Assembly (NCBI RefSeq): GCF_001921215.1
Contig: NZ_MSIF01000044.1
Coordinates: 1-40,992 of the forward strand
Length of the DNA stretch: 40,992 nt
Direction: 5' to 3'
DNA from: Actinophytocola xinjiangensis
GTDB lineage: Bacteria; Actinomycetota; Actinomycetes; Mycobacteriales; Pseudonocardiaceae
Under the pieces are notes generated by a model that was not told where the DNA came from, did not search any database, and was given only the letters and a program-made list of their open reading frames with translations. Position numbers and translations under genes: made by a program. Of the stretch, positions 1,797-28,498 are shown piece by piece (position 1 is the first letter of the stretch; every line of letters begins with the position of its first letter).

Positions 1797-1809
1797 GAGG
1801 GACGAATCC

Positions 1810-3723: not shown

Positions 3724-3738
3724 ACGTTGTCCGCATAG
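3709..3738 (+). repeat. 15-bp perfect tandem duplication across the asnB stop codon
   Basis: The unit acgttgtccgcatag occurs at 3709-3723 and again, without a gap, at 3724-3738. The first copy contains the TAG stop of the amidotransferase gene, and the second adds another TAG in the same frame. The duplication lengthens the spacer before the next gene's ribosome site (aggggaag at about 3742-3749). Confidence 0.95.
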
Positions 3739-3753
3739 ACACAGGGGAAGCCC

Positions 3754-7895: not shown

Positions 7896-7909
7896 GGCGG
7901 AGGACTGCT

Positions 7910-15400: not shown

Positions 15401-16054
15401 TCGGCCCTGGACCGGGTGACCAGCTCCTACGCCCCCACCGTCCGGTCCCTGCTGCACGCGCGGGCCAGGCCCGCCGGCACCGGCGGCCGGCTCACGGTCG
15501 CGATGCGCCACACCGCCGGGCTCCCCGACCTGCCGGGCACCACGGCCGAGGCCGAGGCGCTGCGCACCCGCCATCCGGACACGGTCGCCCTGGCCGACGC
15601 GACGGCCACCGCCGGCGCGGTGCTGGCCGCGTTGCCGGCGGCGAGCGTCGCGCACTTCGCCTGCCACGCCACCAGCGACCCGGCGGCCTCGGCCGGCAGC
15701 GGCCTGCACCTGCACGACGCCCTGCTGACCGTTCCCGAGGTGGCGCGGCTGCGGCTGTCCGGCGCGGAGCTGGCCTACCTGTCGGCGTGCTCGACCGGGC
15801 GCGGCGGCGTGGTCACCGCCGACGAGGCGATCCACCTGGGCTCGGCGTTCCAGCTGGCGGGCTTCCGGCACGTGGTCGCCACGCTGTGGCCGGTGTCCGA
15901 CGCGGTCGCGGCCTCGGCGGCCCAACGGTTCCACGAGCTGCGCGACCAGGACGTCCCGCCCGCGCAAGCGCTGCACCGGGTGGCCAGGCGGCTGCGCGCC
16001 GAGCACCCCCGCGACCCCCGGCTGTGGGCACCCTTCGTCCACAGTGGACCGTAG
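12476..16054 (+). CDS. TPR-repeat CHAT-domain (caspase-like) protein
   Basis: A 1192-residue protein starting at ATG 12476, 4 bases after the GT4 stop. No ribosome site is evident, so it may be translationally coupled. Residues about 15-700 consist of about a dozen TPR-like repeats of 45-50 residues with a recurring core (DLDAAI, then ALP DDPQR, then NLAVAYRRR). The C-terminal part (about 880-1192) is a CHAT peptidase domain: catalytic His1064 lies in HFACHA and Cys1105 in LSACST, followed by SAFQLAGFRHVVATLWPVSD. Both residues are intact, so protease activity is plausible. CHAT proteases act on protein partners; the TPR part would recognise the substrate. Codons 51 and 823 are TTA. Its place inside a polysaccharide operon is unusual, and its target is unknown. 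Confidence 0.9.
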   Translation: MAWTKRTQRPPADTYSQLARAVDAVYAAIRASEVPALGTAIDELTAGIGRLPDDEPNIGVYQAVLGFALARRYRFTGEVDDLRAGIDHGELALDALPADDPQRHKVLLQLSNHYVDLFRVDDELSDLDAAIELAEEHLELAPQDDPELAEKLYNLAVAYRWRHERTGDVDDHDSMLELCEEALTAPAMPGVRHGDVRAWLRNGYFDRYLREGVFEDLDTAARHGERCLAETAADDPERVPRLFLLALVYQHRFDLTGDLADADSMARRADAAVALGDPDAPSWPSLLAMAAEGHRRKFDRLGTRADLDAAIDGLERAVAALDPDDQRRARWQANAGLDHLARFRLTGDEASLRTAVDRLESACAAIPEDHPDHIDCQGKLAMAYQARFELTRDDDDLAASITLNERVVAGTEPAEGGAHVPALVNLAADLLERYHHLGDPADLDTAIGFGQRALPLLPETGADRSACLSNVAVGHRRRYDRFGAGADLDAAIVLGEQAVAALPDDHPQRPPRLGNLALAHAQRFRRTGSTGDLDTAIEHGGQAVAGLPDTGDRARFRLALGVHHRERFVAGGDPEDLARAVELAEQGLAGATGDTPEWAEHAAALAGALLARYRHAGEQADLDAAIDTMERAAVHGSVNYLGNLAIAYGEKADRLPDGTVERLVEGVLSAADDVLASELSAAQQNVGTLALRAGEPTAAARVLAAAVRALPRCAPRGLEWSDQEFQLAPRRGLVGDAIAAQLAAGDVEGALELAELGRGVLLGNQLDARAGTGGLAGADPELAAEFDRVCAELDLPRPPELDTVRAAAWLSRRRAAAGEWDELLDRIRALPDFADFLAPPRARDLRAAATGGTVVLVSVGHTVGHTVGQPGGDAILVRPDGLTHLPLPGLDAGEVRARVATLTGVTVADEGGGSLTRPVPADPGLLSWLWETITGPVLDALGHTEPSDEPPRVWWVPTGLLGLLPLHAAERPGGPSALDRVTSSYAPTVRSLLHARARPAGTGGRLTVAMRHTAGLPDLPGTTAEAEALRTRHPDTVALADATATAGAVLAALPAASVAHFACHATSDPAASAGSGLHLHDALLTVPEVARLRLSGAELAYLSACSTGRGGVVTADEAIHLGSAFQLAGFRHVVATLWPVSDAVAASAAQRFHELRDQDVPPAQALHRVARRLRAEHPRDPRLWAPFVHSGP

Positions 16055-16092
16055 GGCGAAACACCGGTGGCCGGCGCGACGATGCCCCTGTC

Positions 16093-16677
16093 GTGCGTGT
16101 CTCCTGGCGGGTCGCCCTCGCCCTCATCTCGCTGGGTGCCGCGCTGACCGTGGCGGTCCTCGGCGTGCTGTTCGCCGGCGCCACGGCCGGCACCGGCGTG
16201 GACGAGTGGGCGCGCTCGACGCTGCTGGGCGCCGGATCCCCCTGGCACCAGCTGGCGCTGGCGGTGGACTTCACCGCCGAACCGGTCGGCGGCGCGCTGA
16301 CCATCGGCCTGCTGGTGCTGGCCTGCCTGGTCACCGGCCACCGCCGGGGCGCCGTACTGGCGATCGTGGGCACCGGCGGCTCGATCGCCGTCACCACCGC
16401 GCTCAAACCCCTGGTGGGCCGGGAGATCAACGGCGGGTTCCTGGCCTTCCCCAGCGGCCACACCGCGACCGCCACCGCCGTGGCCCTGGTCGCGATGCTG
16501 GTGTTCACCCGCCGCCGCGTGCTCACCGCGCTGGTCACCCTCGCCGCCGGGGCCGCCATGGCCTGGGCGCAGGTGCTGCTCAATGCCCACTACGCCACCG
16601 ACACCCTCGGCGGGTTCGCCACCGCGCTGGCCGTCGTGCCGGCGACCGCGCTGGTCCTCACCCGCCCTCAGGCGTAG
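16093..16677 (+). CDS. PAP2-family phosphatase, membrane-embedded
   Basis: A 194-residue protein; GTG 16093 is chosen because it is followed directly by the first membrane helix (VALALISLGAALTVAVLGVLF). About five hydrophobic segments are present. The three PAP2 phosphatase motifs can be traced: KPLVGRE (Lys105 to Arg110), PSGHTATAT (Ser121, His123) and AHYATD (His166, Asp170). In motif three the Arg usually found six residues before His is Gln160. The enzyme probably removes phosphate from undecaprenyl pyrophosphate or a related lipid, recycling the carrier used by the polysaccharide pathway. It lies 38 bases after the CHAT gene, and its last 10 bases overlap the convergent aminotransferase gene. 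Confidence 0.85.
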   Translation: MRVSWRVALALISLGAALTVAVLGVLFAGATAGTGVDEWARSTLLGAGSPWHQLALAVDFTAEPVGGALTIGLLVLACLVTGHRRGAVLAIVGTGGSIAVTTALKPLVGREINGGFLAFPSGHTATATAVALVAMLVFTRRRVLTALVTLAAGAAMAWAQVLLNAHYATDTLGGFATALAVVPATALVLTRPQA

Positions 16678-17987
16678 CGGCGGAACACCGGGCGCACCGG
16701 CCGCCCACCCAGCCACGGCGTCGGGTCACCGGCGTCCAGCGCCCGGCGGTACACCGCGCAGGCGCGGGCCACCACGTCCACCGTGTACTCCAGGTCCACG
16801 TCCGACAGCGCGCTGCTGACCACGAACGACGGGCCCAGCACGCCACCACTGACCAGCTGGCGCAGGAACAGCGTCCGGTAGGCCTGCGAGGGTTGGCCGT
16901 CGCCGTCGAGCGTGCCGAACACCAGGTTCGACTCGCGGCCGCGCACCACCACGTGGTCGGCCACCCCGGCCGCCCGCGCCGCCGCGCGCACCCCGGCCGC
17001 CAGCCGGGTGCCCAGCACGTGCAGCTGCTCGGCGATGCCCTCCCGGTCGTAGGTCTGCATCACCGCCATCGCCGCGGCCAGCGAGTGGCTCTCGGCGCCG
17101 TGCGTGGTGGACAGCAGGAACACCCGCTCCCGGTGGTCCCGCAGCCCACCGAGCTCCATCAGCTCACGTTTGCCGGCCAGCGCCGCCACGGCGAACCCGT
17201 TGCCCAGCGCCTTGCCGAACGTCGACAGGTCCGGCGTCACCCCGTACACGCCCTGTGCCCCGGACTCCGACCAGCGGAACCCGGTGATCATCTCGTCGAA
17301 GACCAGGACCACGCCGTGGCGGGTGCACAGCTCACGCAGGCCGCGCAGGTAGCCCGGCGGCGGGTCGGCCTGGGTCGCGGCCTCCAGCACCAGAGCGGCG
17401 ATCCGCCCGTCGTGCTCGGCGAACAGCGCCTCCACGGCCGGCAGGTCGCCGTAGGGGAAGGTGACGGTGAGGTCGGCGATCGCGCGCGGCACCCCGGCCG
17501 CCATCGCCGTGGTCGCCACGAACCAGTCGTCGGTGGCGAAGAACGGCTGGTCGGCGCACAGCGCGACCAGGTCGCGGCCGGTGGCCGCGCGGGCCAGCCG
17601 CACGGCGGCGGTGGTCACGTCCGAGCCGTTCTTGGCGAACTTCACCATCTCGGCGGTCGGCACGGTCGCCAGGAACATCTGCGCGGCGTCGATCTCCAGC
17701 CGGCTGGGCCGCACGAAGTTCGACCCCAGCTCCAGCTGCGCGCGCACCGCCTCGGTGACCCGGGGGTGCACGTGCCCGAGGCTGACCGACCGCAGCCCGG
17801 AGCCGTACTCGACGTAGGAGTGCCCGTCGACGTCCCACACGTGCGCGCCGCGCCCGTGCGAGATCACCGGCGCGAGGCCCTCGGGGTACTGGTCCTCGCC
17901 CTTGGCGTAGGTGTGCGCGCCGCCGGGCACCAGGTCGTGCAGCCGTTTGTTGGCCTCCCGCGAGTGGGGCAGGTCCGGTGTCCTCAT
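16668..17987 (-). CDS. Class III aminotransferase, glutamate-1-semialdehyde aminomutase-like
   Basis: A 439-residue PLP enzyme starting MRTPDLPHSREANKRLHDLV at ATG 17987, which overlaps the previous gene's stop (ATGA). Landmarks of the HemL-like family are present: PGGAHTYAKG near 21, GHVHPRV near 71, FAKNGSDVTTAAVRLARA near 117, FDEMITGFR with cofactor Asp231, and TFGKALGNGF with the Schiff-base Lys259. A true HemL is unlikely because the gene is the last member of a polysaccharide operon. Such paralogues are presumed to aminate a keto-sugar or make an amino-acid-like substituent. This operon has no other aminotransferase. It converges on the PAP2 gene with no terminator between them. Confidence 0.87.
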   Translation of the reverse strand: MRTPDLPHSREANKRLHDLVPGGAHTYAKGEDQYPEGLAPVISHGRGAHVWDVDGHSYVEYGSGLRSVSLGHVHPRVTEAVRAQLELGSNFVRPSRLEIDAAQMFLATVPTAEMVKFAKNGSDVTTAAVRLARAATGRDLVALCADQPFFATDDWFVATTAMAAGVPRAIADLTVTFPYGDLPAVEALFAEHDGRIAALVLEAATQADPPPGYLRGLRELCTRHGVVLVFDEMITGFRWSESGAQGVYGVTPDLSTFGKALGNGFAVAALAGKRELMELGGLRDHRERVFLLSTTHGAESHSLAAAMAVMQTYDREGIAEQLHVLGTRLAAGVRAAARAAGVADHVVVRGRESNLVFGTLDGDGQPSQAYRTLFLRQLVSGGVLGPSFVVSSALSDVDLEYTVDVVARACAVYRRALDAGDPTPWLGGRPVRPVFRRYA

Positions 17988-18544
17988 GGCAGTTCCTCCA
18001 GCACCGAATCCGTCAGTGAGGCCAGCGGGCTGGCCTGTCTGTCCCGGTCGGACAGCAGCGCGACCGGCAGCGGCCACGGGATGGCCAGGTCCGGGTCGTC
18101 GTGGGCGATCGCCACGTCCTCGCGCGGGTCGTGGCGGCGGTCGATGCGGTAGGACACGTCGGCCGGGTCGGTCAGCGCCTGGAACCCGTGCGCGCAGCCG
18201 GCCGGCACGTACAGCGAGACCTGGGTGTCGCCGGAGAGCACGATGTGCAGCTGTTTGCGGTGGGTCGGCGAACCCGGCCGCAGGTCGACGACCACGTCGA
18301 ACACCCGCCCGGCCGAGCAGCGCACCAGCTTCGCCTCCCCCGCGCCCGACCGCAGGTGCATCCCGCGCAGCACGCCCCGGCGCGACCGGGACACGCTGTC
18401 CTGCACGAACGCGTCCGGGTCGAGGCCGGCGGCGCGCACCACGTCGGCGTCGAAGGTGCGGGAGAAGAACCCGCGCTCGTCGCCGTGCGGGGTCGGCTCG
18501 AACAGCAGCGCCCCGGCGATCTCGGGGACCGGCCGGGCCCTCAC
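17984..18544 (-). CDS. dTDP-4-dehydrorhamnose 3,5-epimerase family protein (RmlC-like)
   Basis: A 186-residue cupin starting at GTG 18544, within a GTGA overlap with the pyruvyl transferase gene. The RmlC signature is clear: HGDERGFFSRTF near 20, RGVLRGMHLR with the catalytic base His63, Lys72, VPAGCAHGF (His119) and Tyr132 in SYRID. The residues needed for proton abstraction and protonation are kept, so it should be active. It may act on a 4-keto-6-deoxy sugar at C3, C5 or both. No RmlA, RmlB or RmlD gene lies in the window, and the only nucleotidyltransferase here is of the cytidylyl type. The substrate may therefore be a CDP-sugar instead of dTDP, or be supplied from elsewhere in the genome. 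Confidence 0.88.
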   Translation of the reverse strand: MRARPVPEIAGALLFEPTPHGDERGFFSRTFDADVVRAAGLDPDAFVQDSVSRSRRGVLRGMHLRSGAGEAKLVRCSAGRVFDVVVDLRPGSPTHRKQLHIVLSGDTQVSLYVPAGCAHGFQALTDPADVSYRIDRRHDPREDVAIAHDDPDLAIPWPLPVALLSDRDRQASPLASLTDSVLEELP

Positions 18545-19704
18545 GAGGCCACCATCGCCGAGAGCGCGGCGAACTGCTCGTCGAGCAGCTGGCGCTGGTA
18601 TTTGGCCGCCACCAGCAACGCGGCCGACACCTCCTGCGCGCGCCGGCACAGGTCGGCGACCTGCGCGCGGACCAGGTCGACGTCGAAGTCGCGGATCGAG
18701 TGGCTGAACCCGGGCAGGCCCATGGTGTCCATCAGCGCGGCGTTCTTGGCGGCGTAGCCAAGCGACACGACCGGCCGGCCGAGCCCGAGCGCGCACAGCA
18801 CGTTGTGGTACCGGCTGGCGACCACCACGTCCACGCCGGCCAGTTCGGCCAGCAGTTCGTCCACTGTGGACGCGTTGGCGGCGCTGACCGGCGCGTCCGG
18901 CAGGGCGGCGACGACCGCGTGCGCGACCGCGAGGTCCATCCGGTCGCCGGTGAGCAGCCGCACGGCCCGGCCGTCGCCGGTCAGCCCCCGCACCAGCTCG
19001 ATGAGCCTGGCCAGGTAGTCGTCGTGGATCCGGTCGGCGTGCGCCCGGTCGCCCGGCCCGCCCCGGTAGGCCATCACCCCGACCCCGACCACCCCGGTAC
19101 CACCGGGCGCGTCCGGCCCCGGCAGGGCGAACGCCAGGTCCGGGTACACCCGGTCGGCGCGCACGTCGACGCCCAGGGCGGCCAGCGCGTCGCGCGACCC
19201 GGTGTCCCGGTAGGACCGGTAGGTCGCCAGCCGCGCCGCGCGCACCACGAACCAGCGCACCCCCGGCTGACGGATCGGCCCGGCGCCAACGCTGACCAGC
19301 GCCACCGGCGTGCCGAACAGCCGCCCGGCCAGGCACAGCACGAACAGCGAGTACGGGAAACCCCACGGCCGCAGGGGAAGCGTCGCTTCCAGCACGCCCA
19401 TCCCCGGCACGATCACCACGTCGTGGCGGCGGACCCAGGCGGCCGTGCGCACGAGTTCCCCGAGCTTGGCCACGGCCTTGGCCACCGCCGAGCGCACCCC
19501 GGACGCGGTGGTGAACTCGGTCGTGCGGTACAGCGCCGTGGCCTCCAGCCCGAACGTCGCACGCACCTGGTCGGGGCCGCCGCACAGCGCGTCGATCCTG
19601 GCGTGCGGGTGCGCGGCGCGCAGGTGCCCGAGCATCGCCAGCAGCGACGCGTCGTTGCCCAGGTTGCCCGAGCCCAACAGCCCGAACAGGCCGATCCCGC
19701 TCAC
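18541..19704 (-). CDS. Polysaccharide pyruvyl transferase family protein
   Basis: A 387-residue protein starting VSGIGLFGLLGSGNLGNDAS at GTG 19704 (GTGA overlap with the upstream GT2 gene). The N-terminal GSGNLGNDA glycine loop, the mid-protein GMGVLEATLPLRPWG and the C-terminal ASRYHNVLCALGLGRPVVSLGYAAKNAALM are characteristic of PF04230 (CsaB/WcaK-like) enzymes. These add a ketal pyruvate from phosphoenolpyruvate to a sugar and so give the polymer a negative charge. Both sides of the gene show 4-base overlaps, so the product is made with the other repeat-unit enzymes. The acceptor sugar is unknown. Confidence 0.86.
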   Translation of the reverse strand: MSGIGLFGLLGSGNLGNDASLLAMLGHLRAAHPHARIDALCGGPDQVRATFGLEATALYRTTEFTTASGVRSAVAKAVAKLGELVRTAAWVRRHDVVIVPGMGVLEATLPLRPWGFPYSLFVLCLAGRLFGTPVALVSVGAGPIRQPGVRWFVVRAARLATYRSYRDTGSRDALAALGVDVRADRVYPDLAFALPGPDAPGGTGVVGVGVMAYRGGPGDRAHADRIHDDYLARLIELVRGLTGDGRAVRLLTGDRMDLAVAHAVVAALPDAPVSAANASTVDELLAELAGVDVVVASRYHNVLCALGLGRPVVSLGYAAKNAALMDTMGLPGFSHSIRDFDVDLVRAQVADLCRRAQEVSAALLVAAKYQRQLLDEQFAALSAMVAS

Positions 19705-20645
19705 CCGAGCCGCCGGTCCCGCCCGGCGACGATCGCGTCGACGAGCAGCGGCTCGGTGGTGACCGGCGCGCGGTCCTCCACCCGGTGGGTGCGGTGCGGG
19801 CGCGCCCGGCTGCCCAGCCAGGACGCCAGGTGCCGATAGCACTCGCGGCGCTGGCGCCCGGTCAGCGGCGCCCGGTTGATCGCCCCGGCGAAGCCAAGCA
19901 CGTAGTCCGACAGCAGCCGCACCGTCGGGTGCCGCAGCCGGTCGGCGCGGCGCGGGTCGAGGTTGGCGCAGCGCGACCGGATCGTCGGGTTGGCCCGCTC
20001 GGCCCGGTCGGGGTGGTCGCGGCGGAAGAACAGCAGCTCCGGGACCTGGCGGAACGGCCCGTGCAGGGCGATCTCGGCGACGAACGTGCGGTCGGCGTGG
20101 TGGTAGCTGTCGTGCGGGCGGACCCGGCGCAGCACCTCGGTGCGGATCACGCCGTAGAAGTCGTCGCCGCCCGGCTCGAACAGCAGACTGCGGAAGCGTT
20201 GCGGGGCGTGCGGCGAGTCGGTGGCCAGCCGGTAGTCGAAGGTCACGGTGACCGCGCCGTCGCCGTCGATGATGGCCTGCCCGGCGTGCGCGAGCACCGC
20301 CTCGGGGTGCTCGTCGAGTTCGCGCACACACCGGGCCAGCAGCTCCCGGCCGTACAGGTCGTCGTGCGAGGCCCACTTGAACAGCTCGCCCCTGGCCAGG
20401 GTGAACACGTGGTTGTGGTTGGGCGCCGCGCCGATGTTGCGTTCCAGCTTCAGGTAGCGCACCCGCGAGTCCCTGGCGACGTAGTCGCGGGCGACCTGTT
20501 CGGTGGCGTCGGTGGACGCGTTGTCGGTGATGATCAGCTCGAAGTCGTGGAAGGTCTGGCCGAGCAGCGCGTCCAGCGACTCGGCGAGGAACTCCTCGCC
20601 GTTGTAGACCGGCAGGCCGATGCTCAGCCGTGGCACCGTGTTCAT
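19701..20645 (-). CDS. Glycosyltransferase family 2
   Basis: A 314-residue protein starting MNTVPRLSIGLPVYNGEEFL at ATG 20645, overlapping the flippase stop (ATGA). It has the GT-A fold landmarks of GT2: the nucleotide-binding LSIGLPVYNGEEF, the metal-coordinating region with DNASTD near 41-46, and the DXD-equivalent SHDDLYG (Asp95 and Asp96). No membrane helices are apparent, so it should work at the cytoplasmic face. It probably extends the undecaprenyl-linked oligosaccharide. The C-terminal about 100 residues, arginine- and histidine-rich, are less conserved. Confidence 0.9.
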   Translation of the reverse strand: MNTVPRLSIGLPVYNGEEFLAESLDALLGQTFHDFELIITDNASTDATEQVARDYVARDSRVRYLKLERNIGAAPNHNHVFTLARGELFKWASHDDLYGRELLARCVRELDEHPEAVLAHAGQAIIDGDGAVTVTFDYRLATDSPHAPQRFRSLLFEPGGDDFYGVIRTEVLRRVRPHDSYHHADRTFVAEIALHGPFRQVPELLFFRRDHPDRAERANPTIRSRCANLDPRRADRLRHPTVRLLSDYVLGFAGAINRAPLTGRQRRECYRHLASWLGSRARPHRTHRVEDRAPVTTEPLLVDAIVAGRDRRLG

Positions 20646-21892
20646 CTCGTCCCCATCTCCGCTGGTACTCGGTCAGGTTCGTGCTCACGCAGCGCCGCCC
20701 GCAGGTGCGCCCACCAGGCCAGCGCCCCGCACCACATGGCGATCGCCGACCCCCAGGCCGCGCCGGGCGCCCCGGCGGCGGCCGCGCCGGCCAGCGCGGC
20801 GCCCAGGTAGCCGGCCGAGGCCAGCAGCTGGGCGCGCAGACTCCGCCGCGCGGCGCCCAGCGCCCGCAGCCCCGCGCTCGCCCCGGCCACCACACCGGCC
20901 CCGGTCACCGACAGCGACACCGGCAGGATCAGCGCGGACGCCGGCCCCCACACGTCGTCGAGCACCAGCTCGCCCAGCGTGTCGGGCACCGCGAACAGCA
21001 GCGCCGCTCCCCAGCTCGCCGCCGCCAGCGCCTGCACCCCGCCCAGCGCCAGGCAGAACCGGGCGAGCCGGTGCGGGGCCTGGCGCAGCACCCGCGCCGC
21101 CTCCGGCACGGCGACCAGGTTCAGGCCCATCAGCAGCGCCAGGAACGGGCCGAGCAGCAGCTCCGCGCCCCGCAGGGCGCCGACGTCGGCCAGGCCGGCG
21201 ATCGCGCCGAGGCCGTACATCCGCAGCTGCCCGGCGCCGGAGTTGCTGACGTTCTCCACCAGGTAGCGCGTGCCGAGTTCGCGGTGCGCGCGCACCCAGT
21301 CGCCGACCCCGCCCGGCGTGGGCCGGATCCCGCTCTGCCACCACCCGCAGCCGGCGGCCACCACCGACGAGCCGCCCCAGGCCAGCACGAACGCCCACAC
21401 CTGGCCGTGCGCCGAGGCGACCAGCAGCGCCGGCACCATCGCGCCCGCCCAGGCCAGGTCGTTGAGCAACGCGCGCCGCCCGGTGCCGGCGGCGAAGAAC
21501 GCGAACCGCCAGCTGTCCTGCAGCAGCATCGCCGGGGCGACCACCCCGAGCGCCACGAACGCCGCCCCCAGCTGCCCACCGATCACCAGCCCGGCGAGCA
21601 CGCTCACCACCCCGAACGCGAGGCCGACGGCGATCGCCGTGCCGGCGGCGCGCGCGGTCGCCCGCGCCCACGTGCCGTGCTCGACGCCGGAGAAACGCAC
21701 CACCAGCGGGTCGGTCGCCAACCCCCGCGAGACGTTGAGCACCACGCCGTAGGTCACCCAGGCCAGGCTGAACAGCCCGAACCCGGCCACCCCCAGTTCC
21801 CGCGCGACGAACACCCCGACGACGAAGTTCGTCATGCTCGACAGTGCCTGGTCACCCAGTCCCCAGGTCAGCCGCCCGGCCAACCCCCTCAC
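20642..21892 (-). CDS. Wzx-type flippase / polysaccharide exporter membrane protein
   Basis: A 416-residue protein starting at GTG 21892 in a GTGA overlap. It has about 12 hydrophobic segments and opens with LTWGLGDQALSSMTNFVVGVFVARELGVAGFGLFSLA, an arrangement typical of the MOP/MATE superfamily branch that includes Wzx flippases (the early GDQALSS.TNF and the ELG..GFG.FSLA loop). The expected job is moving undecaprenyl-linked repeat units across the membrane for the Wzy-like polymerase. This is the only flippase candidate seen in either operon. Confidence 0.87.
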   Translation of the reverse strand: MRGLAGRLTWGLGDQALSSMTNFVVGVFVARELGVAGFGLFSLAWVTYGVVLNVSRGLATDPLVVRFSGVEHGTWARATARAAGTAIAVGLAFGVVSVLAGLVIGGQLGAAFVALGVVAPAMLLQDSWRFAFFAAGTGRRALLNDLAWAGAMVPALLVASAHGQVWAFVLAWGGSSVVAAGCGWWQSGIRPTPGGVGDWVRAHRELGTRYLVENVSNSGAGQLRMYGLGAIAGLADVGALRGAELLLGPFLALLMGLNLVAVPEAARVLRQAPHRLARFCLALGGVQALAAASWGAALLFAVPDTLGELVLDDVWGPASALILPVSLSVTGAGVVAGASAGLRALGAARRSLRAQLLASAGYLGAALAGAAAAGAPGAAWGSAIAMWCGALAWWAHLRAALREHEPDRVPAEMGTR

Positions 21893-23154
21893 GGGGCGTC
21901 CTTCAGCAATCCGGCGGCCAGCAACGCGTCAGCGGCGGCGGCCACCGACGTGAACGGCAGGCCGGCGCGTCGCGCGGTGTCCAGCAGGGAGTGCTGGCCG
22001 TCGGCCAGGTTGAGCACCCAGAGCATCGCCAGCTGGGCGTCGTGGGCGTCGCTGCGCCCGCCGAGGGAGTCGTAGAGCCCACGCCGGCCCAGCTGCGGCT
22101 CGCCGTAGGGCGACAGGTTGACGTAGCGCCGGTCCCGGTCCAGCACCGCCACCGCCTCCCGCAGCACCTCCAGGGTGTCCACCATGGACTCCGGGCTGAC
22201 GAGGTCGGGGTTGTCGCCGGAGGTGTGGTACTCGGGGTAGCCGGCGTAGGGGGTGCGGGTCAGCGAGCCGACCCCCAGGTCGAAGCCGGGTGAGCAGTAC
22301 TGGCGCTCGTCGTAGCCGTAGGGCGTGAACTCGCGGATCTCGTGCGGGCGGTCGCGCAGCACGTACTCCATTACCTGGTCGATCGGCGCGTCGCCCCGGC
22401 GACTTCTCTTGTAGGTCAACGATCCCCGGTCGCCGGCGCAGGCCAGCACGATCCCGTGCCGCACCCGGTCGATCCGCTGCGCGTTGCGCGCGAGCCAGGT
22501 GATGGCGCCGATCGTGCCGGGCGCGAAGACGAACCGGTAGGTGTAGTAAGGGTTCTCCAGCGACAGCGCCAACCCGACGGCGACCGCGATCCCCGCCAGG
22601 TTGTCGTTGGCCAGCGACGGGTGGCACACGTGGGCGCTGACGATCACCTCGTCCTCGACCTGCCCCGGCACGACGTGTTCGGCGTAGGTCAGCGAGCCGT
22701 CGGCCAGCGTCGAGTCGACACACACCTCGTACTCGCCGTCCGGCAGAGAGTCCAATGTGGACTGTGCGAGGCAGAAGCCCCAGGTCGGCGCGTAGTAGCT
22801 GGTGCGGTACGGCACGAGTGCTGGCTGGTCGGGCAGCGTGTGCAGGTGCTCGCGCAGCTCCGCCAGCGGCAGCCGGGTCGCCACCGGCACGCTGTAGCCC
22901 ACCACGTGCAGGTTCGACTCCCGGAAGTCGATCACCCGCCGGCCGCTCGCGTCGGCGACGTAGGCGTCGCGGATGTTCCACTCCTGGGGCACCGTCCAGT
23001 CCAGCACCGGCGTCCCGGTCGGCACCTCGTGCACGGTCAGCGGCAGGTGCTCGCCGACGATCGCCAGCGTCTGCCGCACGCCGTCGCCGGTGATGCTGCG
23101 GCACAACGGGTACAGCCGCGACACCAGCGTGTGCATCCAGGGGCCGGTGGTCAT
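21889..23154 (-). CDS. DUF4910 aminopeptidase-like protein with winged-helix C-terminus
   Basis: A 421-residue protein starting [20 protein letters not shown] at ATG 23154 (ATGA overlap). The start [17 protein letters not shown] and the sequence [15 protein letters not shown] are hallmarks of the DUF4910/DUF2172 family, a zinc-peptidase (M28-like) fold. Possible metal ligands are His178 in [12 protein letters not shown], Asp184, and His310 in PEYHTSGDN. Glu283 in [10 protein letters not shown] may also take part. The last about 70 residues look like the small winged-helix domain that ends these proteins. Family members recur in surface-polysaccharide and sugar-modification clusters, but I know of no assigned reaction. 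Amide or peptide cleavage on a sugar-linked group is a reasonable guess only. Confidence 0.82.
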
Positions 23155-24179
23155 CTGGCGGGTTGCGCGGCGGGCCGCAGGGACTGGTCCGCGGCGCCGT
23201 GTTCGCGCAGCCAGGTCAACCGGGTGAACCGCTGGTCGAAGTCCTCGCGGGTCAGGCCGTGGCGCCGGTAGGCCTCGATCAGCTCCCGCGCGCCGTCACG
23301 CACCGACCAGGCACAGGCGAACCCGGGGACCGCCGCGCGGAAACGGGCGAAGTCGACCCGGTAGGAACGCGGGTCGGCGCCGGCCTCCCCGGTGATCCGC
23401 AGCCGCGACCCTGGCACCGCCTCGACCACCTCGGCGGCGATCTGCGCGACCGTCACGTTGTTGGCCTCGGTGCCGATGTTGAACGCCCGGTCGTGCACCG
23501 CCTCGCGCGGCGCCTCCAGCGCCGCCAGGAACGCCGAGGCGATGTCACGGGCGTGCACCAGCGGCCGCCACGGCGTGCCGTCGGAGAGCACCAGCACCTC
23601 CCCGGACAGGTGCGCGTGCCCGACCAGGTTGTTCAGCACGATGTCCGCGCGCAGCCGGGGCGAGAAGCCGAACGCGGTGGCGTTGCGCAGGTACACGGGG
23701 GTGAAGTCGCCGTCGGCCAGCTCGTGCAGGTCGTCCTCGACGCGGACCTTGGACTCCGCGTACGGGGTCACCGGCCGCAGCGGCGCGTCCTCCCCGACCA
23801 GCTCGTCGCCGCCGGCCGCCCCGTACACCGAGCAGGTGGAGGCGTAGAGGAACCGGGAGACACCGGCGTCGCGGGCCAGCCGGGCCAGGCGCACGGCGGC
23901 GTGGTGGTTGATGTCGTAGGTCAGCTCGGGGGCCAGCGCGCCGAGCGGGTCGTTGGACAGCGCCGCCAGGTGCACCACGGCGTCCACACCGGACACCTCG
24001 GCGGCGGTGACGTCCCGCAGGTCGACGGTGTGACCGGGCGGGTCGGTGGGGGCCGGGCCGAGCACGCACCGGTCGAACAGGCCGGAGTCCAGCCCGACCA
24101 CGTCGTGGCCGGCTGCCGTGAGCACCGGCGCCATCACGGTGCCGAGGTAGCCGAGGTGACCGGTCAGCAGCACACGCAT
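23151..24179 (-). CDS. NAD-dependent epimerase/dehydratase (extended SDR)
   Basis: A 342-residue protein starting [20 protein letters not shown] at ATG 24179, three bases after the PIG-L stop. The Rossmann glycine motif TGHLGYLG is at residues 6-13, Asp31 at the end of strand 2 suggests NAD, and the active site follows the extended SDR pattern: Ser114 or Thr115 in YASTCSVYG, and Tyr140 with Lys144 in PYAESK. It resembles 4-epimerases and 4,6-dehydratases acting on nucleotide sugars, but it lacks the longer N-terminus of CDP-glucose 4,6-dehydratase (RfbG). Following the cytidylyltransferase and C-methyltransferase genes, it is a candidate for epimerising or reducing the sugar they make. Confidence 0.87.
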
Positions 24180-24182
24180 CGT

Positions 24183-24827
24183 TCAGCCCTTCAGGTCGAG
24201 GATCAGCTTGGTGACGTGGAACGCCTCGGCGTAGCGGGCCTGGCACTCGATGCCACGGATCCTGGCCAGCCCGAGGAAGACCTCCCGGTCGTACCACGGA
24301 CGGTGTCGCTGCGAGGGGTAGTGCCGTTGCAGCAGCTCGACCTTTTTCTCGGCGAGTTCGGCCGTCAGCGGCTGGTAGGCGTTGGGCGGGGCGAGGTCGC
24401 CGTCCCACTTGACGATCTCGTAGCCGAGCACCAGGTGGTCGCGGAAGGCCGTCGGCACGAGCTGGGCCAGGCCCCGGTGGTCCTGGTGCGCGTCGTCCAC
24501 GCGCGGCGCGAGCACCAGGTCCGGGTCGGTGCCCGCGCGCAGGGTCTCCAGGGCGTTCTTGGCCTCGTCCCAGTGCGCCGGCAGCCGCCCGTCGGGGATC
24601 TTCAGCACGGTCAGCGCCAGGTCGGCCCCGGGACAGAACGCGGCCAGCGCCGCGTGCTCCTCGGCCTCCCGCTCGGTCCCGCCCCCGGACAGCACCAGCG
24701 CGTCCACCCGGATCCCCGGCGTGGCGTCGCACAGCGCGAACAGCGTCGCCCCGGCCCCGATCGCGATGTCGTCACAGTGAGCACCCAGGGCGACCACGCG
24801 CCGGACCGCACCAGCAAGTCCAATCAC
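24183..24827 (-). CDS. PIG-L family deacetylase
   Basis: A 214-residue protein starting at GTG 24827, which overlaps the cytidylyltransferase stop (GTGA). The zinc and catalytic motif GAHCDDIAIGAGATL (His17, Asp19, Asp20) and the second element RVDDAHQDHRGL (His114, His117) define the PIG-L/LmbE family. These enzymes remove acetyl groups from N-acetylamino sugars. In this operon it probably frees an amino group on a nucleotide- or lipid-linked sugar. That would fit an N-acylated or N-methylated residue in the polymer. No signal peptide is present. Confidence 0.88.
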   Translation of the reverse strand: MIGLAGAVRRVVALGAHCDDIAIGAGATLFALCDATPGIRVDALVLSGGGTEREAEEHAALAAFCPGADLALTVLKIPDGRLPAHWDEAKNALETLRAGTDPDLVLAPRVDDAHQDHRGLAQLVPTAFRDHLVLGYEIVKWDGDLAPPNAYQPLTAELAEKKVELLQRHYPSQRHRPWYDREVFLGLARIRGIECQARYAEAFHVTKLILDLKG

Positions 24828-25735
24828 ACGAGCACCTGTTTCTCCTGGGCGCCCCGCTCATCCGCTGAGTCGGCGTCTTCCCTCGTCGCGTGCTCGGCGC
24901 TGGCGCGCCTGCGCGCGCTCCTCAGTCCAGACGCCGACCGCTCCTTCGCTCCTGGCGCCGGCCGGGACTCCCACAACGCCCACGGCCGTTCGCCACGGGA
25001 GTAGCCGTCGTCGAGGGCGAAGCGTTCCTTGACGGTGTCGGTCGGCTTCCAGAAACCCCGGTACGGGTAGGCGAGCAGCCGCCCGCGCTTGGCCAGCTCC
25101 CCACAGCCGTCGGCGACCAGGTCACCGTCCGGCGGGAGGTGGTCGAAGATCTCCTGGCGCAGCACGAAGTAGCCGCCGTTCTCCCACAGCGGCATCTCGC
25201 TCACCGCGGTGATCGCACCCACCCGGTTGTCCTCGCCCATCTCCACGCAGTGGAACGACGACTGCGGCGGCACCACCATCATCGACGCGCCGGCGTCGCT
25301 GGCGGTGAACCGGTCGACCATCACGTCCAGCGGCGCGTCGGTCAGCACGTCGGCGTAGTTGGCCAGGAACATCTCGTCGCCGTCGAGGTGCTCGCGCACC
25401 CGGCGCAGCCGCTCACCGATCGCCGAGGAGATCCCGGTCTGCACGAACGAGATCGACCAGTCGGCGATGTCGGTGGACAGCAGCGTCGCCCGGCCGCCGC
25501 GCAACACGAAGTCGTTGGACACCGTCTCCTCGTAGTTGAGGAAGAAGTTCTTGATGTGGTGCGCCCCGTAGCCAAGGCACAGCACGAACTCGGTGTGCCC
25601 GAAGTGCGCGTAGTAGCGCATCACGTGCCAGATCAGCGGTCGCGGCCCGACCATCGCCATCGGCTTGGGCACGTCGTCGGCGGCGCCGGCGCGCATCCGC
25701 ATCCCGTAACCGCCGCAGAACAGGACGACCTTCAT
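24824..25735 (-). CDS. rfbF: Glucose-1-phosphate cytidylyltransferase-like protein with extra C-terminal tail
   Basis: A 303-residue protein starting MKVVLFCGGYGMRMRAGAAD at ATG 25735 (ATGA overlap). The nucleotide loop FCGGYGMRMR, VPKPMAMVGPRPLIWHVM (Lys24) and FVLCLGYGAHHIKNFFLNYEE are diagnostic of RfbF, which makes CDP-glucose from CTP and glucose 1-phosphate. The normal C-terminus is reached at WALWE near residue 256. The last 47 residues are rich in R, A, S and E and are encoded by an inverted-repeat stretch (24845-24957). No RfbG-type 4,6-dehydratase gene is in the window, so the next step is unclear. Exact sugar specificity is not proven. Confidence 0.88.
   Translation of the reverse strand: MKVVLFCGGYGMRMRAGAADDVPKPMAMVGPRPLIWHVMRYYAHFGHTEFVLCLGYGAHHIKNFFLNYEETVSNDFVLRGGRATLLSTDIADWSISFVQTGISSAIGERLRRVREHLDGDEMFLANYADVLTDAPLDVMVDRFTASDAGASMMVVPPQSSFHCVEMGEDNRVGAITAVSEMPLWENGGYFVLRQEIFDHLPPDGDLVADGCGELAKRGRLLAYPYRGFWKPTDTVKERFALDDGYSRGERPWALWESRPAPGAKERSASGLRSARRRASAEHATREDADSADERGAQEKQVLV
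24845..24957. repeat. Inverted-repeat element inside the 3' end of rfbF
   Basis: A stretch of about 110 bases contains the arms gtcggcgtct (24869-24878) and agacgccgac (24929-24938), a perfect 10-bp inverted repeat. Between them is a self-complementary core (ggcgcgcctgcgcgcgctcc). The outer edges also match, with cctgggcgcc at 24844-24853 and cctggcgcc at 24951-24959 as near-direct repeats. It coincides with the non-conserved tail of RfbF and carries the stop region. It resembles small palindromic repeats found between actinobacterial genes, but no other copy is evident in this window. Confidence 0.6.
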
Positions 25736-26964
25736 GGGTTCACCTCGACGATCTCGAGACGGGGGATCGGGAAGACCAGCCGCCCACCCCAACCGCCCAC
25801 GAAGGACAGTTGGTCGGTCAGCTCGGTGCGCAGGTTCCACGGCAGCACCAGCACGTAGTCCGGCCGGTCGGCGGCGATGCGCTCGGGCTCCAGGATCGGG
25901 ATCCGGGTGCCCGGGGTGAACCGGCCGTGCTTGTACGGGTTGCGGTCCACGGTGTAGGCGAGCAGGTCGGGGCGGATGCCGCAGTGGTTGAGCAGCGTGT
26001 TCCCCTTGCCCGGCGCGCCGTAGCCGACGACACTGCGGCCCTGCTCGGCCGCCAGGGTCAGGAAGCTCAGCAGGTCGCGGCGCACGCCGGCCACCCGGCG
26101 GGCGAACTCGGCGTAGCCGGCCAGTTCGTGCAGCCCGGCCGCCTTCTCCCTGGCCAGCACGTCCAGCACGGCCGCGCTGGGCTCCCCGGCGACCTCGCTG
26201 GGCCTGGCCAGCAACCGGATCGACCCGCCGTGCGTCGCCAGCAGCTCGACGTCCACAAGGGACAGTCCACCGCTGGCCAGCGCGCGCTGCGCGGAGGCGA
26301 CCGTGTAGTACTGGAAGTGCTCGTGGTAGATCGTGTCGTACTGGTTGTGCTCGATCAGCGTGAGCAGGTGCTGCACCTCGATCGACACCCAGCCGTCGTC
26401 GGCGACCAGCGCCCGCAGGCCCTTGGTGAACCCGACGACGTCCGGGATGTGCGCGTAGACGTTGTTGGCCACCACCAGGTCCGCCGGCCCGTGCTCGGCG
26501 CGCACGCCCGCCCCGGTGTCCGGTGTGAGGAACGCGGTGTGCGTCGGCACGCCCCGCTCGCGGGCCGCCGCGCCGACGTTGACCGACGGCTCGACACCCA
26601 GACAGCGGATGCCGGCGGCGGCCACGTGCTGGAGCAGGTAGCCGTCGTTGCTGGCGACCTCGACGACGAACGAGTCGGCACCGAGGCGCAGCCGCGCGAC
26701 CGAGTCGTCGACGAAGCGCCGGGCGTGCTCGACCCACGACGTGGAGTACGACGAGAAGTACGCGTACTCGGTGAACGTCTCCTCCGGCGTGATCAGCGGC
26801 GGCAGCTGCGCCAGCCAGCACGACGTGCACACCCGCAGGTGCAGCGGGTAGGTGGTCTCCGGCTCGTCGAGCTGGGCCCGCGTGAGGAACCGTTCACACG
26901 GCGGGGTCGCCCCCAGGTCCACCACGCTCACCAGGCTCGCCGACCCGCACAGGCGGCACCGCAT
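25732..26964 (-). CDS. NDP-sugar C-methyltransferase with zinc ribbon (TylC3/TcaB9-like)
   Basis: A 410-residue protein starting MRCRLCGSASLVSVVDLG at ATG 26964, one base overlapping the sugar transferase stop (TGATG). Cys3, Cys6, Cys46 and Cys49 form the N-terminal zinc site of methyltransf_13 proteins. The SAM site is VVEVASNDGYLLQ at about 100-112. The motif YHEHF (Tyr213, Glu215, His216) matches the catalytic residues known for sugar C-3-methyltransferases such as TcaB9 and KijD1. The C-terminal methyltransf_14 domain includes VGYGAPGKGNTLLNHCG. It should add a methyl branch to C3 of a 4-keto sugar nucleotide, probably the CDP-sugar of this operon. Confidence 0.88.
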   Translation of the reverse strand: MRCRLCGSASLVSVVDLGATPPCERFLTRAQLDEPETTYPLHLRVCTSCWLAQLPPLITPEETFTEYAYFSSYSTSWVEHARRFVDDSVARLRLGADSFVVEVASNDGYLLQHVAAAGIRCLGVEPSVNVGAAARERGVPTHTAFLTPDTGAGVRAEHGPADLVVANNVYAHIPDVVGFTKGLRALVADDGWVSIEVQHLLTLIEHNQYDTIYHEHFQYYTVASAQRALASGGLSLVDVELLATHGGSIRLLARPSEVAGEPSAAVLDVLAREKAAGLHELAGYAEFARRVAGVRRDLLSFLTLAAEQGRSVVGYGAPGKGNTLLNHCGIRPDLLAYTVDRNPYKHGRFTPGTRIPILEPERIAADRPDYVLVLPWNLRTELTDQLSFVGGWGGRLVFPIPRLEIVEVNP

Positions 26965-28451
26965 CAGTACGCCCCCTGTCCGCCGAGCACGGCGCGGAAC
27001 GTCTTCCACAGGATCATCACGTCCATGGCCAGTGACCAGTCCTCCACATAGCGCAGGTCCAACCGGACCGCCTCCTCCCACGACAGGTCGCTGCGACCGC
27101 TGACCTGCCACAATCCGGTCAAGCCGGGTTTGACGAGCAGCCGGCGCCGCATGTCCGGCTCGTAGCGGGCGCACTCCTGGGGCAGCGGCGGCCGGGGCCC
27201 CACCAGCGACATGGCGCCGGCGAGCACGTTGAGCAGCTGCGGCAGCTCGTCGAGCGAGTAGCGCCGCAGGACCGCGCCGACCCGGGTGACCCGGGGGTCG
27301 CGGCGCATCTTGAACAGCACACCGGCGCCTTCGTTGTCGCCGGCCAGCGCCGGCTTGAGCCGGTCGGCGTCACGCACCATCGTGCGGAACTTGAGGATGG
27401 TGAACTCGTGGCCGGCCTTGCCGACCCGCCGCTGCCGGTAGAGCACCGGCCCCCGGCTGTCGATGGCGATCGCCACGGCGATCAGCGCCATCAGCGGCAG
27501 CGCCATCGCCAGCAGCGCGACCGCCCCGACCCGGTCCATCACGCCCTTGACCACGCGCCGCATCCCGGTGAACACCGGGGCGCTGACCCGCAGCATCGGC
27601 ATCCCGAGCACCCCGGAGACGTGCAGCCGGGGCCCGGCGACCTCCATCAGCGTCGGCGCGACGACCATCTCCGCGCCGCTGTCCTCCAGCCGCCACGCCA
27701 GGCGCTGGAGCCGACGCGGGTTCCAGTAGGGGTCGGCGGTGATCGCCACGATCCGGTAGCCGCCGCGCCGCACGTGCTCGGCCAGCTCGTCGAGCCGGCC
27801 GACGACCGACACCCCGGCGATGCCGGCGATCGAGTCGCCGGTGCCGTCGGCGGTGCACACGGCGGCGACCTGCCAGCCGATGTGCGAGTTGTCCCTGGTG
27901 CGTTCGATGAGGTCGCGCACGGTGTCCGGGTGGCCGGCGGCCATCACCGGCAGCAGGCACTGCCCGATCCGCCGCGCCCGGTGCAGTACCTGGCGCAGCA
28001 GGTAGCGGGCGAACAGCGCGACCAGCGCGGTGGCCGGGACGACGACGAACACCCACGGCCGGGTGGAGACCACGCCGGTCGCGAGGCCGGCCAGGGCGAG
28101 GGTGACGGCCGCGGCGAACAGCCCCCGGCCCAGCCGCACGTACTCCTCGGCGCCCTGGCCGAGGACGACCGGGTGCCAGGCGCGGCCGGCGGCCAGCGCA
28201 CAGACCTCGATGGTGACGGTGAGGAAGCCGAGGGTGAGGTCCTTGAACAGGGCGGCGCCGCCGACGCTGAGCAGCCCGCCGAGAACGACGGCGACGACGA
28301 CCGCGACGGTGACGTCGCTGAGGATGACCAGCCGGCGGTAGCGGGGTTCCCAGCCGGCCACGGGTAACCGGGAGTGCTCACCGCCGGTGGTGGTGAGACT
28401 GCGCAGGATCGTTGGTCTTCGCCGCCGGACCCCCAGCCGTGGTCCGGTCAC
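26964..28451 (-). CDS. Priming sugar transferase (polyprenyl glycosylphosphotransferase)
   Basis: A 495-residue protein; GTG 28451 is chosen because it lies in a GTGA overlap with the short leader ORF. The N-terminal half has four membrane helices (about 42-150) and a cytoplasmic Rossmann-like domain. A fifth hydrophobic segment near 310-330 starts the C-terminal catalytic domain. Diagnostic motifs are RRVGKAGHEFTILKFRTM, DELPQLLNVLAGAMSLVGPRP and KPGLTGLWQVSGRSDLSWEE. This is the WbaP/WcaJ family, which transfers a sugar 1-phosphate to undecaprenyl phosphate and so starts assembly of the repeat unit. As first full gene of the minus-strand operon, it makes the whole pathway depend on the leader region at 28448-28866. 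Confidence 0.92.
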   Translation of the reverse strand: MTGPRLGVRRRRPTILRSLTTTGGEHSRLPVAGWEPRYRRLVILSDVTVAVVVAVVLGGLLSVGGAALFKDLTLGFLTVTIEVCALAAGRAWHPVVLGQGAEEYVRLGRGLFAAAVTLALAGLATGVVSTRPWVFVVVPATALVALFARYLLRQVLHRARRIGQCLLPVMAAGHPDTVRDLIERTRDNSHIGWQVAAVCTADGTGDSIAGIAGVSVVGRLDELAEHVRRGGYRIVAITADPYWNPRRLQRLAWRLEDSGAEMVVAPTLMEVAGPRLHVSGVLGMPMLRVSAPVFTGMRRVVKGVMDRVGAVALLAMALPLMALIAVAIAIDSRGPVLYRQRRVGKAGHEFTILKFRTMVRDADRLKPALAGDNEGAGVLFKMRRDPRVTRVGAVLRRYSLDELPQLLNVLAGAMSLVGPRPPLPQECARYEPDMRRRLLVKPGLTGLWQVSGRSDLSWEEAVRLDLRYVEDWSLAMDVMILWKTFRAVLGGQGAY

Positions 28452-28498
28452 GACCGGTGTCCGTCGGGCGGCATGGATTCGCTCGTCTGCTCACTCAT
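28448..28498 (-). CDS. 16-codon leader ORF coupled to the priming sugar transferase
   Basis: The peptide MSEQTSESMPPDGHRS runs from ATG 28498 to TGA 28448-28450. It has the best ribosome site of the operon, GAGGGGA (reverse strand of 28504-28510), five bases before the ATG. Its stop overlaps the GTG of the sugar transferase in the same GTGA arrangement used between the genes of this operon, while that GTG has no ribosome site of its own. It therefore looks like a translated leader that delivers ribosomes to the operon by translational coupling. I see no run of regulatory codons that would suggest classic attenuation. Confidence 0.65.
   Translation of the reverse strand: MSEQTSESMPPDGHRS

Follow-up and report, generated by a model that had tools for sequence, protein, structure and literature searches.

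Several described pathways each resemble in part the system considered here, an operon of 11 genes on the minus strand of a 40,992-nucleotide stretch of Actinophytocola xinjiangensis DNA (contig NZ_MSIF01000044.1, positions 1 to 40,992; this whole stretch is called the window). The CDP-3,6-dideoxyhexose pathway (RfbF, RfbG, RfbH/E1, and E3) also has a nucleotidyltransferase of the RfbF superfamily as its first enzyme. In the A. xinjiangensis genome, however, no RfbG scores over the profile cut-off, the nucleotidyltransferase of the operon falls below the RfbF cut-off, and a C-methyltransferase is present. In the noviose and mycarose antibiotic pathways, a sugar C-methyltransferase acts on a 4-keto sugar, and the route runs via a 4,6-dehydratase to 6-deoxy sugars. 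A C-methyltransferase acting on a 4-keto sugar is likewise found for virenose of bacterial lipopolysaccharide, but the proposed route passes through a TDP- or GDP-sugar 4,6-dehydratase to a 6-deoxy sugar (PMC3539893). Sinorhizobium meliloti SMb21416-21418 (ddhA, ddhB, and an NDP-hexose 3-C-methyltransferase) pair a nucleotidyltransferase with a sugar 3-C-methyltransferase as the operon does, but include a CDP-glucose 4,6-dehydratase (PMC4053727). The S. meliloti strain examined here has both rfbF, over the RfbF cut-off, and rfbG, and the stretch that holds them contains no match to the C-methyltransferase of the window.

A different logic is found in the GDP-D-glycero-heptose pathway of Campylobacter jejuni, in which Cj1427 oxidises C4 of GDP-heptose without dehydration and with 2-oxoglutarate recycling, and the C3/C5-epimerase Cj1430 and the C4-reductase Cj1428 follow (PMC10680097). 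C4 oxidation without dehydration, followed by a C3/C5-epimerase, is the feature that the operon appears to share. The two systems differ in that the C. jejuni substrate is a GDP-heptose, that the steps described in PMC10680097 include no C-methylation, PIG-L, DUF4910, or HemL, and that in the operon no C4-reductase was identified and the nucleotidyltransferase is of another kind.

The link between DUF4910 proteins and sugar operons is already published (PMC3068675 in 2010, PMC4000134 in 2014): in surface-carbohydrate loci, among them those of actinobacteria, DUF4910 has been found next to a nucleotidyltransferase, a methylase, and a sugar epimerase/dehydratase (Das et al. 2014, PMC4000134; Cj1295, PMC3068675). 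The words PIG-L, cytidylyltransferase, and aminotransferase do not occur in the main text of PMC4000134, and the optional DUF4910 slot described below comes from the present analysis. No published description of the gene combination was found in open-licence full texts, which do not cover additional files such as those of PMC4000134; the match of a haloarchaeal genome paper was judged a coincidence. DUF4910 is mentioned there in two papers and DUF2172 in three, and no paper on CDP-vinelose was found. A link with the heterocyst polysaccharide island of Anabaena was considered and set aside. A preliminary description of this DNA had proposed an undescribed system, which goes too far for the DUF4910 link.

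What does the operon encode? Seven of its genes constitute a sugar module that is also present in Proteobacteria: a nucleotidyltransferase, a C-methyltransferase (CMT), a PIG-L deacetylase, a short-chain dehydrogenase/reductase (SDR), a DUF4910 protein, an RmlC-like epimerase, and a HemL-like aminotransferase. These are the seven minus-strand enzymes named in the preliminary description, and Pfam and NCBIfam profile matches recover all of them within the coordinates given there. The remaining members are a polyprenyl glycosylphosphotransferase, a membrane protein, a GT2 glycosyltransferase, and a PS_pyruv_trans protein. The genes are tightly packed between the GTG of the glycosylphosphotransferase (28451) and the end of the HemL-like gene (16668). 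They are likely to form one transcription unit, because nine of the ten junctions overlap by 1 or 4 nt and the other is a 3-nt gap. The operon is one copy of a sugar-building gene set common to soil actinobacteria and rhizobia. We give a probability of about one in two to the reading that it makes and assembles a nucleotide-activated, carbon-branched sugar for an exopolysaccharide of the Wzx/Wzy type.

The order of the module is strongly conserved in actinobacteria. A scan of contigs from one genome per species found at least 589 DUF4910 loci, the best 80 of which are all actinobacterial, to judge by record titles. In 79 of these 80, the CMT, nucleotidyltransferase, PIG-L, SDR, and DUF4910 genes have the same order and strand, and neighbouring matches are never more than 155 bases apart; the sole exception (L117) lies on a short contig. 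All ten genes downstream of the glycosylphosphotransferase are found in the same order in 61 of the 80. Among the other 18 loci with the five-gene core, seven run off the end of a contig, two are each short of a single gene (GT2 in L109 and HemL in L114), and nine, from Kutzneria, Nonomuraea, Planobispora, Microbispora, and [Actinomadura] parvosata, have different downstream genes. A sample of 396 genomes of the phylum gave a DUF4910 match in 20, over the cut-off in 15. Eleven phylum loci with a DUF4910 match of at least 186 bits, the window included, were examined. The fetched stretches of six of the others contain CMT, nucleotidyltransferase, and PIG-L (one, L037, without an SDR match), and that of L032 has CMT and SDR with DUF4910.

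Does DUF4910 occur apart from the module? Among 199 genomes of one genus, DUF4910 and a module-type nucleotidyltransferase are found in the same 71, and neither occurs in the remaining 128; all 71 pairs lie on one contig, 2368-2779 bases apart. This genus (that of genome G023) is taken as Streptomyces from operon DNA that is 86-91% identical over 16.6-19.7 kb to Streptomyces loci (4 genomes). Among 200 genomes of the window's own family, DUF4910 is found in 41, each time within 2.9 kb of the nucleotidyltransferase, and 60 genomes contain, in all, 65 nucleotidyltransferase places for which no DUF4910 lies within 6 kb. In these two samples, DUF4910 accompanies the module, which for its part can do without DUF4910; the DUF4910 form of the operon is present in about a third of the sampled genus and a fifth of the family. 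The co-occurrence is far beyond chance. The preliminary description had suggested looking for genomes in which DUF4910, PIG-L, the nucleotidyltransferase, and the zinc-ribbon methyltransferase occur together, and their joint occurrence is indeed conserved.

The weakest nucleotidyltransferase match kept in these counts scores 379.5 bits. Excluded were weak matches in the genus (G602 and G707, at 104 and 117 bits, and a second fragment in G620, at 119 bits), seven nucleotidyltransferase places of 136-153 bits in the family, only one of which belongs to a genome without a stronger match (G532), and four DUF4910 pieces, of which two are the second halves of split matches (G671 and G683), one is short (G182), and one is weak (G685). 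The DUF4910 matches split in two (G671:C1:5794697-5795785 and G683:C1:8066763-8067842) and a similarly split nucleotidyltransferase match (G620:C1:2517101-2517906) perhaps reflect a frameshift or decay.

Distance matrices from 29 chosen loci show that the core module genes share a history. Pairwise distances of CMT, nucleotidyltransferase, PIG-L, SDR, and DUF4910 (20 loci) correlate with r of 0.89-0.97; the values are 0.90-0.96 for HemL (15 loci) with the others and 0.73-0.78 for RmlC with the core genes, and 0 of 300 permutations reached the observed correlation in any comparison. The lower RmlC correlations fit the fact that RmlC copies and orientation differ in several lineages.

The module also resides on plasmids. 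Out of 42 plasmid records encoding a DUF4910 relative, 12 were opened, and eight of these carry the module: one from Streptomyces (KN37) and seven from Proteobacteria (Mesorhizobium WSM1497 and WSM1284, Roseateles XES5, Qingshengfaniella, Agrobacterium pusense, Neorhizobium, and Sinorhizobium fredii NGR234). All seven proteobacterial loci have the order SDR-DUF4910, RmlC on the opposite strand, and CMT-nucleotidyltransferase-PIG-L; HemL lies within the fetched stretch in five of them and is cut by the stretch end in NGR234. Four of the eight module loci adjoin exopolysaccharide kinase or export genes. On a Paroceanicella plasmid the set is partial: its nucleotidyltransferase is of the standard type, and no PIG-L is annotated. 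The presence of the module in NGR234 (L156) places it in a symbiont, and no paper naming its product was found.

Which enzyme supplies a keto sugar to the C-methyltransferase? No CDP-glucose 4,6-dehydratase scores over the cut-off in the genome, which is 99.26% complete (best TIGR02622 score 74.3 bits against 278.45), and none is annotated in the opened module stretches, where plasmid gene tables are incomplete and L156 is without annotation. E1 (RfbH) and E3 enzymes are absent from the operon; no genome-wide search for E1/E3 was made. The standard CDP-dideoxyhexose route was rejected for want of an RfbG over the cut-off. The preliminary description had called the pathway non-standard and lacking RfbG, with the proviso that no 4,6-dehydratase should lie nearby, and the genome-wide result bears it out. 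It had also taken the dehydratase step to be simply missing, and here the present analysis departs from it, because the SDR looks like a C4-dehydrogenase of the Cj1427 type.

Dehydratases carry the motif S-T-D-E-V-Y-G, in which the Asp-Glu pair does the elimination. The SDR, which scores 19.6 bits on TIGR02622, reads S-T-C-S-V-Y-G at this position (S-S-C-S-N-Y-G in rhizobial copies); the Asp-Glu pair is replaced and the catalytic Tyr and Lys (P-Y-A-E-S-K) are retained. Its nearest solved relative by sequence is 6vo6 (Cj1427). A Foldseek search with an AlphaFold2 model of the SDR (pLDDT 81.3, pTM 0.85) returned Cj1427 chains at all of ranks 1-6, and the stretch R.AT..G.SPR.R.D...N is common to both proteins. 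Sequence and model together suggest that the SDR is a Cj1427-type C4-dehydrogenase, which would oxidise C4 without dehydration. The SDR and RmlC of the operon would then fit the logic of the Cj1427 pathway, and the C-methyltransferase would need such a 4-keto sugar.

Might the operon instead serve an ordinary CDP-6-deoxy-3-C-methylhexose pathway, with the dehydratase encoded elsewhere or replaced by another cellular one, and with the SDR as the final 4-ketoreductase? RmlC and the C-methyltransferase are usual partners of 4-keto-6-deoxy sugars, the genome contains other dehydratase-like SDRs (74.3 bits is the best of them), and a GDP-mannose 4,6-dehydratase gene is found at the edge of two module loci. 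The listing of ddhA, ddhB, and an NDP-hexose 3-C-methyltransferase together in S. meliloti (PMC4053727) points the same way. However, no CDP-glucose 4,6-dehydratase was found over the cut-off in the genome or annotated in the opened module stretches, and the SDR is closer to Cj1427 than to any reductase. We consider this pathway unlikely.

The SDR could also be read as a GalE-like 4-epimerase, in which case the product would be an ordinary epimerised, methylated hexosamine and DUF4910 an accessory. The best NCBIfam match of the SDR is TIGR01179, at 87 bits far under the cut-off of 262.3, and numerous GalE folds appear further down the ranking of matches to the model. By contrast, Cj1427 comes first by both sequence and fold and shares the conserved stretch given above, and this C-methyltransferase family and RmlC need a free keto sugar; an epimerase product of this kind is decidedly unlikely.

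The nucleotidyltransferase belongs to the RfbF superfamily but is not a standard RfbF. The window protein misses the TIGR02623 cut-off of 300.25 at 173.2 bits, as do its counterparts in L137 (177.0) and L033 (211.8), whereas the control, an S. meliloti RfbF encoded beside a CDP-glucose 4,6-dehydratase, passes at 327.3 bits. The RfbF-type cytidylyltransferase of the preliminary description is therefore retained at the level of the superfamily, and not as the equivalog. The E-K-P and R-F-G residues of such enzymes have a role in sugar-1-phosphate binding, and the corresponding residues of the window protein are T-A-V and S-F-H. Across 20 aligned sequences, all 16 of the module type have T-A-V, T-P-V, A-P-V, R-A-A, or R-S-S in the first set of columns and S-F-H, T-F-H, or T-Y-H in the second, whereas Glu-Lys and Arg-Phe/Tyr-Gly are retained in the four of the standard type (1tzf, L132, L133, and L037). 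Because the cut-off is missed and the pocket motifs are altered, glucose-1-phosphate is a doubtful substrate and a role as plain CDP-glucose maker is weakened. CDP and glucose, as named in the preliminary description, are thus assumptions; CTP is probably the nucleotide donor.

The missed cut-off that a true RfbF passes, the loss of Glu-Lys and of Arg and Gly from all 16 module-type sequences, and the example of C. jejuni Cj1416, a nucleotidyltransferase using a non-sugar phosphate, would also suit an enzyme that uses a phosphate other than a glucose-type sugar-1-phosphate and gives a nucleotide-activated non-sugar or an acyl-type decoration, but this is highly improbable, as RmlC, the C-methyltransferase, and the SDR are all of sugar-nucleotide enzyme families and the operon has its own glycosyltransferase and glycosylphosphotransferase.

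Module-type nucleotidyltransferases are also found without CMT, PIG-L, or SDR, in L149 (8737-9570) and L151 (8554-9330), where their product may be used directly. In L151, the gene lies between those for a glycosylphosphotransferase and a glycosyltransferase, with a Wzy_C protein nearby.

The other enzymes of the module retain the motifs expected of their families. The C-methyltransferase, of the TylC3/TcaB9 family, is over the cut-off for all three of its Pfam domains, and the catalytic YHEHF motif of the preliminary description is present as IYHEHF. Its nearest solved relative is the D-mycarose 3-C-methyltransferase 4rv9 (E 4.2e-87); NovU is a precedent for methylation at C5. PIG-L has AHCDD and DAHQDHR motifs, which are kept with small changes across the module. 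The notion that PIG-L occurs always and only with the divergent nucleotidyltransferase is contradicted by L140 and L037. The RmlC-like epimerase, one of three RmlC matches in the genome, has the His, Lys, and Tyr that act in the RmlC active site. The HemL-like aminotransferase scores 209.2 on TIGR00713 (true HemL), below the cut-off of 527.3, and carries the pyridoxal phosphate lysine in FGKALGNGF.

How might these enzymes work together? We infer every reaction, the order of the steps, the nucleotide, the starting sugar, and the product. The RfbF-like enzyme would activate a sugar-1-phosphate that is probably other than plain glucose-1-phosphate, with CTP as the probable nucleotide donor, and PIG-L would take an N-acetyl group off the sugar or an intermediate. 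The SDR would then oxidise C4 with retention of the C6 oxygen, unlike RfbG, and the C-methyltransferase would methylate beside the new ketone, at C3 (or at C5, as in NovU). RmlC would invert C5 and/or C3, and the HemL-like aminotransferase, where present, would turn a carbonyl into an amine. Optionally, DUF4910 may alter an N-acyl or related group of the product. Finally, the glycosylphosphotransferase, GT2, PS_pyruv_trans, and membrane proteins would build and export the polymer together with the plus-strand genes. The likeliest product is probably an activated, C-branched, probably amino, non-6-deoxy sugar for an exopolysaccharide. The most economical version is an epimerised non-6-deoxy hexose that bears a C-methyl group at C3 or C5 and, in loci with HemL, an amino group, which agrees with the branched, probably amino-bearing sugar of the preliminary description.

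A more specific route, common to the two phyla, can be put forward tentatively, at well below even odds. In this route, the divergent cytidylyltransferase would act on a non-glucose sugar-1-phosphate such as that of an N-acetylhexosamine, and PIG-L, C4 oxidation keeping the C6 oxygen, C-methylation, epimerisation, and amination would lead to a branched diamino sugar, whose N-acyl group would be exchanged by DUF4910 as a mono-zinc non-peptidase. The operon offers a testable case of C4 oxidation in place of 4,6-dehydration for a likely CDP-sugar.

Several observations weigh against a branched exopolysaccharide sugar made in this way. The SDR shares only 30% identity with Cj1427, and its model is also matched by GalE-type 4-epimerases, which makes an epimerase possible. 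As no dedicated 4-ketoreductase was found, what becomes of the 4-keto group is accounted for only if the aminotransferase or the SDR handles it. GDP-mannose 4,6-dehydratase is annotated at the edge of the module loci L120 and L123. The set itself is not always complete: L140 has no match to PIG-L or to DUF4910, L149 and L151 have the nucleotidyltransferase without CMT, PIG-L, or SDR, and L037 has the other module genes with no SDR match in the fetched stretch and a nucleotidyltransferase of the standard type. In several loci (class B, L033, L119, and L141), the fetched stretch has no HemL match. Finally, DUF4910 is found where the module is not, both in the fetched stretches of the phylum loci L035, L036, and L038 and on three of the 12 opened plasmids (Halorussus, Maritalea, and A. 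salinitolerans), where it has nonulosonate-type or other settings, like Cj1295.

A locus of the phylum from outside the window's class, L032 (8155-16955), holds DUF4910, CMT, a GHMP kinase, an SDR, and a nucleotidyltransferase-HAD fusion, with no RfbF or PIG-L match. We infer that it encodes a GDP-heptose route; therefore, the SDR-CMT-DUF4910 trio seems to act on another activated sugar too, and the locus lends independent support to the Cj1427-type reading of the SDR. An aldo-keto reductase of L032 might be the missing reductase.

What is the role of DUF4910? In the preliminary description it perhaps processes an amide-linked group, as does PIG-L; in the operon it is optional and not central. 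Sixteen of the 65 family places without DUF4910 were read, hand-picked across identity and genera, so that their proportions are not estimates. L137-L140, all from one genus, have the same operon without DUF4910 and with no detected remnant. Nine others (L141-L148 and L152) encode a second protein of the C-methyltransferase family, MT2, which in L143 stands where the full operon has DUF4910. In L150, only the genes for CMT, nucleotidyltransferase, PIG-L, and SDR are present. Plasmids of Tsukamurella and Gordonia have the MT2 form too. MT2 may catalyse a different reaction from CMT, because both of these plasmid copies have R-H-G-H-F where CMT has Y-H-E-H-F. DUF4910 was rejected as a core enzyme on the basis of its loss from L137-L140 and its replacement by MT2, and is instead a tailoring enzyme in an exchangeable slot. 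The natural operons without DUF4910 make the function of this unsolved structural-genomics family directly testable.

The DUF4910 protein of the window is 47% identical to 3k9t over the model. All of 14 module members retain its zinc ligands H178, D184, and H310; in L035 and L036, which are not module loci, Asn takes the place of D184. In CA_C2195, Ser191 and Pro225 stand in place of the M28 catalytic residues (PMC4000134). Ser180 and Pro212 of the window protein align with these two, Pro212 being invariant and Ser180 nearly so among the 14 members, and activity as an M28 zinc peptidase was rejected on this ground. The only functional clue found for the family comes from genetic evidence that its member Cj1295 alters the N-acyl group on a sugar: pseudaminic acid needs Cj1295 to carry di-O-methylglyceroyl where an acetyl group would otherwise stand, and the authors of that study hypothesised cleavage of the acetamido bond (PMC3068675). 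A setting that recalls that of Cj1295 is seen in L135 (5986-9266), where a pseudaminic acid gene set and an AAC(3)-family N-acetyltransferase lie close to DUF4910, an IS3 transposase being located in between.

Table 1. Genes of the operon and of the neighbouring cluster in the window.
Feature	Position	Strand	Basis or remark
Polyprenyl glycosylphosphotransferase (first sugar onto lipid carrier), 495 aa	26964..28451	-	TIGR03025 407.2 bits (cut-off 295.55); PF02397
Zinc-ribbon sugar C-methyltransferase (CMT), 410 aa, IYHEHF	25732..26964	-	PF08421, PF13489, PF08484
RfbF-like sugar-1-phosphate nucleotidyltransferase, 303 aa	24824..25735	-	TIGR02623 173.2 bits (< 300.25); 1tzf E 4.1e-41
PIG-L type zinc deacetylase, 214 aa	24183..24827	-	PF02585 49.3 bits (cut-off 28.2)
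SDR, proposed Cj1427-type C4-dehydrogenase, 342 aa	23151..24179	-	Closest PDB sequence 6vo6; Foldseek
DUF4910/DUF2172/HTH_47 protein, 421 aa	21889..23154	-	PF16254 358.6 bits, PF09940, PF16221 over cut-off
Membrane protein, possible flippase by position only	20642..21892	-	Relatives occupy same operon place
GT2 glycosyltransferase	19701..20645	-	PF00535 87.3 bits
Polysaccharide pyruvyl transferase family protein	18541..19704	-	PF04230 89.6 bits; relatives occupy same operon place
RmlC-like 3,5-epimerase	17984..18544	-	TIGR01221 158.3 bits, just above cut-off 155.75
HemL-like class III aminotransferase (PRK06209 type)	16668..17987	-	NF004856 689 bits (cut-off 486)
PAP2 phosphatase	16045..16677	+	PF01569 45.3 bits; convergent with operon, as in Streptomyces KN37 cluster
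CHAT-domain (C-terminal) protein, 1192 aa	12476-16054	+	Between both exopolysaccharide cluster halves
Wzz, AsnB-type amidotransferase, bi-domain oxidoreductase, heparinase II/III, unknown, Wzy_C-like, methyltransferase, GT4	3..12471	+	

The plus-strand genes at positions 3-12471 look like the remainder of the same exopolysaccharide cluster, and the annotated Streptomyces KN37 plasmid has a closely similar set of families and order in one run. As regards the Wzx/Wzy set, the glycosylphosphotransferase and Wzz are over their cut-offs, Wzy_C scores 24.6 (below 31.7), and Wzx is assigned by position only; the membrane protein of the operon has no Pfam or NCBIfam match. The plus-strand methyltransferase-like protein, at 25.9, is below its cut-off. 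In L040 (78%) and several MT2 variants, the C-methyltransferase has a relative of the glycosylphosphotransferase next to it; no match to the glycosylphosphotransferase was found at E 1e-8 in four operons of the same class (L029, L030, L031, and L034). Upstream of the operon, a 415-bp divergent gap (28452-28866) separates it from a PQQ-like repeat protein (28867-30450) and is the likely promoter region.

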